Below, one piece after another: positions 31,755 to 32,034 of a DNA stretch of 64,000 nt. The stretch covers positions 2,172,001 through 2,236,000 of the forward strand of contig NZ_WIXO01000001.1 in assembly GCF_009709575.1 (NCBI RefSeq), read 5' to 3'. The position numbers and the translations under genes are program-made. Source of the DNA: Streptomyces taklimakanensis. Its GTDB lineage: Bacteria; Actinomycetota; Actinomycetes; Streptomycetales; Streptomycetaceae. Each line of letters begins with the position of its first letter. The stretch's first letter is position 1. Under the pieces are notes generated by a model. That model did not search any database. It saw nothing but the letters and a program-made list of their open reading frames with translations, and was not told the origin of the DNA.

Positions 31755-31985
31755 ACCGACGCCTACGAGGTGAGCTGTCGGGTTCGGGCCGTGAGCAGCC
31801 CGGCCGCGCGGGACGCGGTGTCCCCGCGCGGCTTCACCCCAAGCCGCCGTGCTCCGTACGCACGGCCCGTCCGTGTGCACGGCCCCGGCGGCGCCTACCT
31901 GGTTCCCCCGCTCCTGCCATCGGCGCTGACGCGACGACTACCCCACCGGCCGCCGGCAGGATTCGGCGCTGCGGTCGGTGGCACT
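31755..31985 (-). ncRNA. c-di-AMP (ydaO-yuaA) riboswitch
   Basis: The minus-strand leader contains the ydaO conserved blocks in order: GCCGAATCCTGCCG, GGCAGGAGCGGGGGAACC, CTTGGGGTGAAGCC and, just before the gene, CGAACCCGACAGCTCACC followed by TCGTAGGCGTC. The first two can pair (CCTGCC/GGCAGG). In Streptomyces this class binds cyclic di-AMP and lowers expression of rpfA and other wall hydrolases. It ends about 13 nt before the ATG, so the expression platform must lie within the final helix. Confidence 0.9.
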
Positions 31986-32004
31986 CGCGGTCGCGAGCGA
32001 GACG

Positions 32005-32034
32005 ACGGTAAGCACACCGGGACATACACCTCAA
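32005..32034 (-). promoter_or_regulatory. Promoter of the riboswitch-rpfA transcript
   Basis: On the minus strand TTGAGG (complement of 32029-32034) and TACCGT (complement of 32005-32010) are separated by exactly 18 bp. The transcript would start about 10-15 nt before the first riboswitch block. Upstream, ATTCACC...GGTGAAT (about 32055-32085) forms a 7-bp inverted repeat that may be a binding site. Confidence 0.6.

Follow-up and report, generated by a model that had tools for sequence, protein, structure and literature searches.

Published accounts of the c-di-AMP riboswitch that precedes the rpfA gene of Streptomyces differ in the level of control that they propose. Premature transcription termination was reported for rpfA (PMC10117811, citing St-Onge and Elliot 2017), and the termination test in vitro is described as having used the E. 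coli polymerase, with termination that is independent of Rho and lacks a canonical terminator (PMC9960051). The rpfA transcript is reported to be up five-fold in a disA mutant of S. venezuelae, and deletion of the riboswitch to yield more transcript (PMC10117811, PMC9960051). Other accounts point to the ribosome-binding site (RBS), which a stem-loop of the S. coelicolor riboswitch seems to block (PMC8079986, citing Haiser 2009 and Block 2010); ydaO is also counted among the RBS-occluding riboswitches in a review (PMC10907184). An sRNA, scr3097, is described as influencing rpfA post-transcriptionally together with the riboswitch (PMC7025569). In the transcripts of Corynebacterium glutamicum, the 5' UTR extends 6 and 12 nt past the Rfam match, by the coordinates in a table of PMC3890552.

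The window, that is the whole 64 kb stretch of DNA analyzed here, contains three Rfam matches above cut-off, namely two tRNAs and a c-di-AMP riboswitch (RF00379, ydaO/yuaA) at 31935-31745 on the minus strand (44.4 bits, E 4.6e-7), located directly upstream of rpfA (31741-31037). The initial annotation had proposed a c-di-AMP riboswitch ahead of one of two adjacent Rpf genes, and its class, strand and served gene are all borne out; the covariance search suggested there as a check gives a score above the RF00379 gathering score of 38 bits. The element is the already known rpfA riboswitch of Streptomyces, so that the assignment is mostly prior knowledge, and it presumably binds c-di-AMP as do other members of the class. 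A diadenylate cyclase domain was found in the same genome. Six RF00379 matches are present in this genome, and the genes that follow them encode two M23 peptidases, an Rpf-LysM-M23 protein, an Rpf-LysM-SLT protein, an NlpC/P60 protein and the Rpf-LysM protein of the window. Between 3 and 8 matches per genome were detected in all 61 genomes of the genus, the window's own included (E<=0.001), and at least one match in 81 of 98 genomes across the class (E<=1e-5). The genomic and taxonomic counts thus mark the riboswitch as ordinary for the genus, and its novelty had been overstated, as the genome holds six such switches and a riboswitch precedes three of the six Rpf-domain genes. Two of the six riboswitches lie approximately 48 kb apart, and each serves an Rpf-domain gene (L005, G000:C1:2203745-2203935; L003, G000:C1:2155530-2155741). 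A plasmid nucleotide search with the leader as query returned only eight weak partial matches.

The rpfA gene (31037-31741, minus strand) encodes an Rpf-LysM cell wall hydrolase of 234 aa (PF06737, 118.5 bits; LysM, 51.4 bits), and the closest RpfA found is that of Streptomyces megasporus, with 72% identity. Its start codon, ATG 31741, was assigned from its position after the Shine-Dalgarno stretch GAGAGGG (31748-31754, minus strand, 6 nt upstream) and from the alignment with relatives. An in-frame GTG at 31756 on the same strand, overlapping the pseudoknot described below, extends the frame to 239 aa, and automatic annotation could misplace the rpfA start at this codon, inside the ribosome-binding site. 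A perfect palindrome, CCGTCAGGGCCGCGGCCCTGACGG, occupies 31698-31675 (minus strand) in the early coding region with no U run after it, and by eye it is not intact in the other rpfA loci compared. Synteny is fixed by the downstream enolase gene eno (29479-30768, minus strand; Enolase_C 447.1 bits, Enolase_N 190.9 bits). For comparison, 15 rpfA loci were used, consisting of the window and 14 named, hand-picked Streptomyces loci; an enolase motif follows rpfA in 13 of them, and the contigs of the remaining two end first. The eno gene presumably follows rpfA in S. coelicolor as well.

A promoter had also been proposed ahead of rpfA, and the comparison agrees with it: the -35-like TTGAGG (32029-32034) and the -10-like TACCGT (32005-32010), both on the minus strand and separated by an 18-nt spacer, correspond to TTGA..-N17/18-TA...T at the matching place in all 15 rpfA loci, with a spacer of 18 nt in 14 loci and 17 nt in one. 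A generic sigma-70 scan gave no promoter in the region, since TTGAGG/TACCGT scores below its threshold. Transcription of rpfA would accordingly begin near 31998, so that the RNA would open with a small hairpin, GCUCGC-GACC-GCGAGU (31983-31998, minus strand). This hairpin is found in all 15 loci, with 98.9% of cells paired and a double change in one pair, and perhaps has a role in RNA stability. The span first given for the element, 31755-32034, fits at both ends, with 32034 being the first base of TTGAGG and 31755 lying within the GUGAG that precedes the rpfA start.

The 5' boundary of the aptamer is misplaced by the Rfam model. When orthologous leaders are aligned, an invariant CGCC.A is followed by UCCUGCC or a paired variant, an insert and then GGCAGGAGCGGGG; P1 is therefore formed by GCGCC at 31969-31965 with 31763-31759, and P2 by UCCUGCC (31961-31955) with GGCAGGA (31918-31912), a hairpin spanning 31912-31961 with a 36-nt insert at 31954-31919. 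The Rfam match combined with the alignment gives an aptamer that extends from P1 to P1 at 31759-31969 on the minus strand, and its last hairpin is GGGC-UGCUCACG-GCCC (31786-31801, minus strand; 100% of cells paired), whose loop contains CUCAC (31795-31791). The alignment used, A1, comprises 50 of 55 rows, leaving out L083, L110, L126 and L184 as other subclasses and L021 as a near-copy of L020; rows L159, L160 and L168 have no P1 match in the alignment listing. Over its 33 pairs, 97.1% of cells are paired, falling to 39.1-51.4% when the structure is slid by 1-3 columns, and 14 pairs show changes on both sides. For the P2 helix, 99.1% of cells are paired and three of seven pairs have changed on both sides. 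Thus the helices of the class (P1, P2, P3, the inner GGG/CCC and the last hairpin) and its invariant core are all present, and the reading of the ydaO blocks in the initial annotation was more accurate than the Rfam 5' boundary. Energy folding alone does not set the leader clearly apart from shuffled sequences (z -1.12), and P1 is missing from the resulting fold.

The first position of the Rfam match, 31935, falls within the P2 insert rather than at P1, and the insert of the window holds a look-alike, GCGCCGA, where Rfam puts P1. Among 12 relatives the match likewise starts inside the insert in 10 and beyond P2 in the other two (L021 and L042), and the true 5' strand of P1 is missed in all 12. 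It is the P2 insert that causes the RF00379 model to miss P1 and P2 of rpfA-type riboswitches, and Rfam-based boundaries are therefore unreliable for this subclass. At its end, the insert of the window resembles the 5' strand of P1. Either GTCGTCGCG or AGACGCG is found in the P2 region of nine of 13 rpfA loci, including the window (stretch 31939-31920), and by eye neither is seen in other riboswitch subclasses. The same inserts bear on whether the riboswitch has decayed and no longer binds its ligand, as its long inserts and low Rfam score might suggest: 44.4 bits is the second lowest score among the six of the genome, and the orthologues span 40.9-72.6 bits. Such decay is very hard to credit, however, as the low score accompanies the misplaced 5' end and the helices pair once P1 and P2 are placed by alignment, in a set that includes the window.

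Downstream of the last hairpin, the aptamer appears to be joined to the ribosome-binding site by a pseudoknot. The sequence following the GGCG of P1 is UCGGUGAGAGGGACGUCGAUG, in which GUGAG (31756-31752, minus strand) is complementary to the loop CUCAC and shares bases with the 5' portion of the Shine-Dalgarno stretch GAGAGGG (31754-31748), and the start codon is 18 nt beyond P1. The pseudoknot itself is not new but belongs to the class, being described as general and as present in the crystallized construct (PMC5393176); in the window this pairing of loop and 3' tail has five pairs, and its helix touches the Shine-Dalgarno stretch, as expected of direct RBS occlusion. An equivalent arrangement with different sequences is found in the remaining five switches of the genome, namely CCUUCC/GGAAGG in two, CUCC/GGAG in two and, recognized by eye, CUUCG/CGAAG in one. 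In alignment A1, the pseudoknot alone is paired in 88.4% of cells as compared with 48.9-67.6% for slid versions, and four of its five pairs have changes on both sides, although slid versions contain as many double-change cells or more (up to 13 versus 8). None of 500 shuffles reached its paired cells, its double-change cells or its covariation score, while 23 of 500 reached the count of double-change pairs and 92 of 500 the count of pair types.

The RBS might instead be closed by a simple hairpin between CUCACC of the aptamer core and GGUGAG, which makes six perfect pairs in the window, is paired in 84.3% of cells in A1 and would agree with the stem-loop described for S. coelicolor (PMC8079986). 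Nevertheless, this pairing has no both-sided change in 50 sequences, all 500 shuffles attained its covariation score and 253 of them its number of paired cells, and relatives with the tails AGGAG, GGGGA and GGATCGG retain the same core. Pairing of the core with the tail would also break P3. As covariation is missing, and the core x tail z value given below is only 2.3, the simple Shine-Dalgarno hairpin was not favored and appears quite improbable.

The pseudoknot pairing was further examined across actinobacteria. The riboswitches analyzed were the matches that came with the loci together with 60 hand-picked stretches, drawn from larger genus and class listings. The core pattern gave 139 matches in 137 loci (L005 being omitted as a copy of the window); 137 rows remained once two second matches without the hairpin, located at a distance from rpfA in L020 and L021, had been removed. 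The pattern missed L006, which is the genome's own NlpC-class switch with CUUCG/CGAAG, as well as L142, L144, L145, L146 and L147, so that five of the 20 loci of one hand-picked set (L142, L144-L147) fall outside the count; within the 65 loci L007-L071 it occurred in 21. In the 137 rows, the loop forms with its own tail a longest Watson-Crick run of 5.43 on average, and permuting the tails lowers this mean to 4.43 (z 12.5, 0 of 2000 permutations); the permutation takes no account of relatedness among the rows. The controls gave z values of 2.3 for core x tail (16 of 2000), -1.1 for loop x coding sequence and -0.7 for loop x another aptamer stretch. Much of the complementarity between loop and RBS is generic, as the permuted mean indicates, because a purine-rich RBS pairs with any pyrimidine-rich loop, and the run is shorter than four in five of the 137 rows. 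By duplex energy, the advantage of a loop's own tail is real for the average (0 of 5000 permutations) but modest in individual rows: only in 34 of the 137 does the own tail surpass 90% or more of the swapped tails, and a mean of 29% of swapped tails do as well. A start codon (open frame of at least 70 codons, 5-75 nt after P1) was found in 132 of the 137. For these, the distance from the GGCG of P1 to the start codon has a median of 21.5 nt and a maximum of 48, and the paired element ends 0-16 nt upstream of the start in 105. In many paralogues, the paired element does not cover the main Shine-Dalgarno stretch itself but is placed immediately 5' of it.

Taken together, these data suggest that the rpfA leader quite probably carries a c-di-AMP OFF riboswitch that blocks translation by occluding the RBS through the pseudoknot, and from which the neighboring gene is exempt. 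The leader would fold as a ydaO-type aptamer in which CUCAC of the last hairpin loop pairs with GUGAG directly after P1. The ligand-bound fold would most likely mask the RBS and so block translation, because the 3' strand of the pseudoknot reaches into the RBS and the start codon follows 18 nt after P1; when c-di-AMP falls, the RBS would open and RpfA would be made. The OFF direction is suggested by the class and by the published work on S. coelicolor and S. venezuelae, whereas the level of control is judged from the sequence evidence, which favors occlusion: terminator-like features are lacking, little room is left after P1, and loop and tail covary. A generic scan detected no terminator-like site on the minus (coding) strand between 29.5 and 34.5 kb, and none of the 15 rpfA leaders contains a run of four or more U, so that the intrinsic terminator that should follow the aptamer of a transcription-terminating riboswitch was not found.

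It is also conceivable that c-di-AMP binding to the same riboswitch causes premature transcription termination and that the pseudoknot only stabilizes the bound fold. Such a role would be in line with the termination reported for S. coelicolor rpfA (PMC10117811, PMC9960051, citing St-Onge 2015 and St-Onge and Elliot 2017) and with the occurrence of the pseudoknot throughout the class, including the crystallized construct (PMC5393176). We regard this as rather unlikely, given the results of the terminator scan and the U-run count, the median of only 21.5 nt between P1 and the start codon, and the published description of termination with no canonical terminator and no need for Rho (PMC9960051). 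With RBS occlusion as the preferred reading, we lean, with somewhat less assurance, towards a more general proposal: the c-di-AMP riboswitches of Streptomyces, and probably of most Actinomycetes, may have no separate expression platform, the class pseudoknot being built on or against the gene's own RBS. Sensing and repression would then reside in one fold, paralogues would change loop and RBS together, and termination at rpfA would be secondary. No printed covariation test of the loop-RBS pairing in Streptomyces was found in the literature searched, but the key primary papers were outside its scope and no priority is claimed.

The neighboring gene appears to have escaped this type of control. 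It is an rpfC-like gene (32174-33259, minus strand) encoding 361 aa, and it lies together with rpfA between a P450 gene upstream and the enolase gene downstream. The initial annotation had described it as the same Rpf-LysM enzyme with a long acidic linker, and this holds for the Rpf domain (PF06737, 117.9 bits, versus 118.5 in RpfA) and for the linker, which has 195 residues with 52 D+E and 19 K+R, as compared with 75 residues, 14 D+E and 5 K+R in RpfA. The LysM part of the description is less certain: the C-terminal piece alone scores 17.9 bits, under the Pfam cut-off of 20.9, and the whole protein gives no LysM match at E<=0.01, while blastp aligns the neighbor with the LysM domain of RpfA at 52% over 46 residues. 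The absence of a riboswitch ahead of it is confirmed, as no RF00379 match other than that of rpfA was found in 29.5-34.5 kb even at E<=10, and the 129 bp (33260-33388) between its start and the P450 gene are too short for an aptamer of approximately 210 nt. Both Rpf genes were recognized in 13 of the 15 rpfA loci; the contig of L012 begins too close, and L041 has one by the motif used. In the 12 of these that remain when the window is excluded, an Rfam scan at the gathering threshold gave 12 matches, one per locus and all at rpfA, so that only the downstream gene of the pair is switched in all 12 relatives. A riboswitch remnant at the rpfC-like gene was considered and rejected on the results of the same searches in the window and in the relatives.

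The neighbor would escape the switch through its own short-leader promoter. The likely promoter consists of TTGTGA (33342-33337), an 18-nt spacer and TACCTT (33318-33313) on the minus strand; TTGT.A-N17/18-TA...T precedes the gene in all 13 loci, window included, and in the same 13 an ATG is located 135 nt before the Rpf motif. From the position of this promoter, the leader in the window would be approximately 47 nt long. A direct repeat, GTGAC..CGTGATC, at 33375-33357 (minus strand) upstream of the gene is conserved in the alignment by eye. It resembles a response-regulator or Crp-type site. The corresponding S. coelicolor gene SCO3098 has annotated Transglycosylase and LysM domains and appears in a list of sigma-E targets, as a member of the regulon (PMC6767563), and vancomycin is reported to induce rpfA and repress SCO3098 in that organism (PMC3123327). 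The sigma-E membership and the opposite vancomycin responses indicate that the S. coelicolor pair is split between different control inputs. The earlier description of a natural pair, in which one enzyme has a c-di-AMP switch and the other does not, is therefore fair, with the S. coelicolor rpfA riboswitch published (PMC10117811), SCO3098 in the sigma-E regulon (PMC6767563) and the arrangement conserved.

Relative to what was known, the present analysis revises the register of the aptamer, identifies conserved promoters ahead of both genes, counts how often the unswitched neighbor is conserved and lends comparative support to RBS occlusion through the class pseudoknot. The results bear on the conflict in print between transcriptional and translational control of the Streptomyces c-di-AMP riboswitch, as the pairing that covaries is that of loop to RBS and the leaders contain no terminator sequence. 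The loop-tail pairs of many species may also serve as ready mutation designs for laboratory strains, and the instructive pair of wall-cutting enzymes, one tied to c-di-AMP and one not, recurs across Streptomyces.

In comparison with known systems, the locus, which combines a ydaO leader on an Rpf-LysM gene, an unswitched Rpf gene beside it and eno downstream, is closest to the rpfA loci of S. coelicolor and S. venezuelae (SCO3097 and vnz_14255), described as the same gene with a ydaO leader, where the neighbor SCO3098 likewise encodes a secreted Transglycosylase-LysM protein. No functional difference from these was found, although a published model is termination and the sequence of the window favors RBS occlusion. 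For S. lividans, too, six genes with ydaO leaders are listed, encoding secreted or cell wall hydrolases. The nlpC riboswitch of C. glutamicum (cg2402) is of the same class, and its reporters are said to support control at the level of translation, with a proposed pseudoknot between CTCC and the GGAG of the RBS (PMC9960051); the pairing in the window was assessed by covariation, and the two systems differ in target enzyme and genus. The ydaO/kimA riboswitches of Firmicutes (B. subtilis; the RNA-Puzzles 12 crystal construct) share the aptamer core and the pseudoknot (PMC5393176). Which strands pair in the pseudoknot, and the absence of a P2 hairpin from the crystal construct, are our reading of its printed sequence. 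The B. subtilis riboswitch is described as acting through a terminator (PMC9960051), unlike the occlusion of the ribosome-binding site that is favored for the window.
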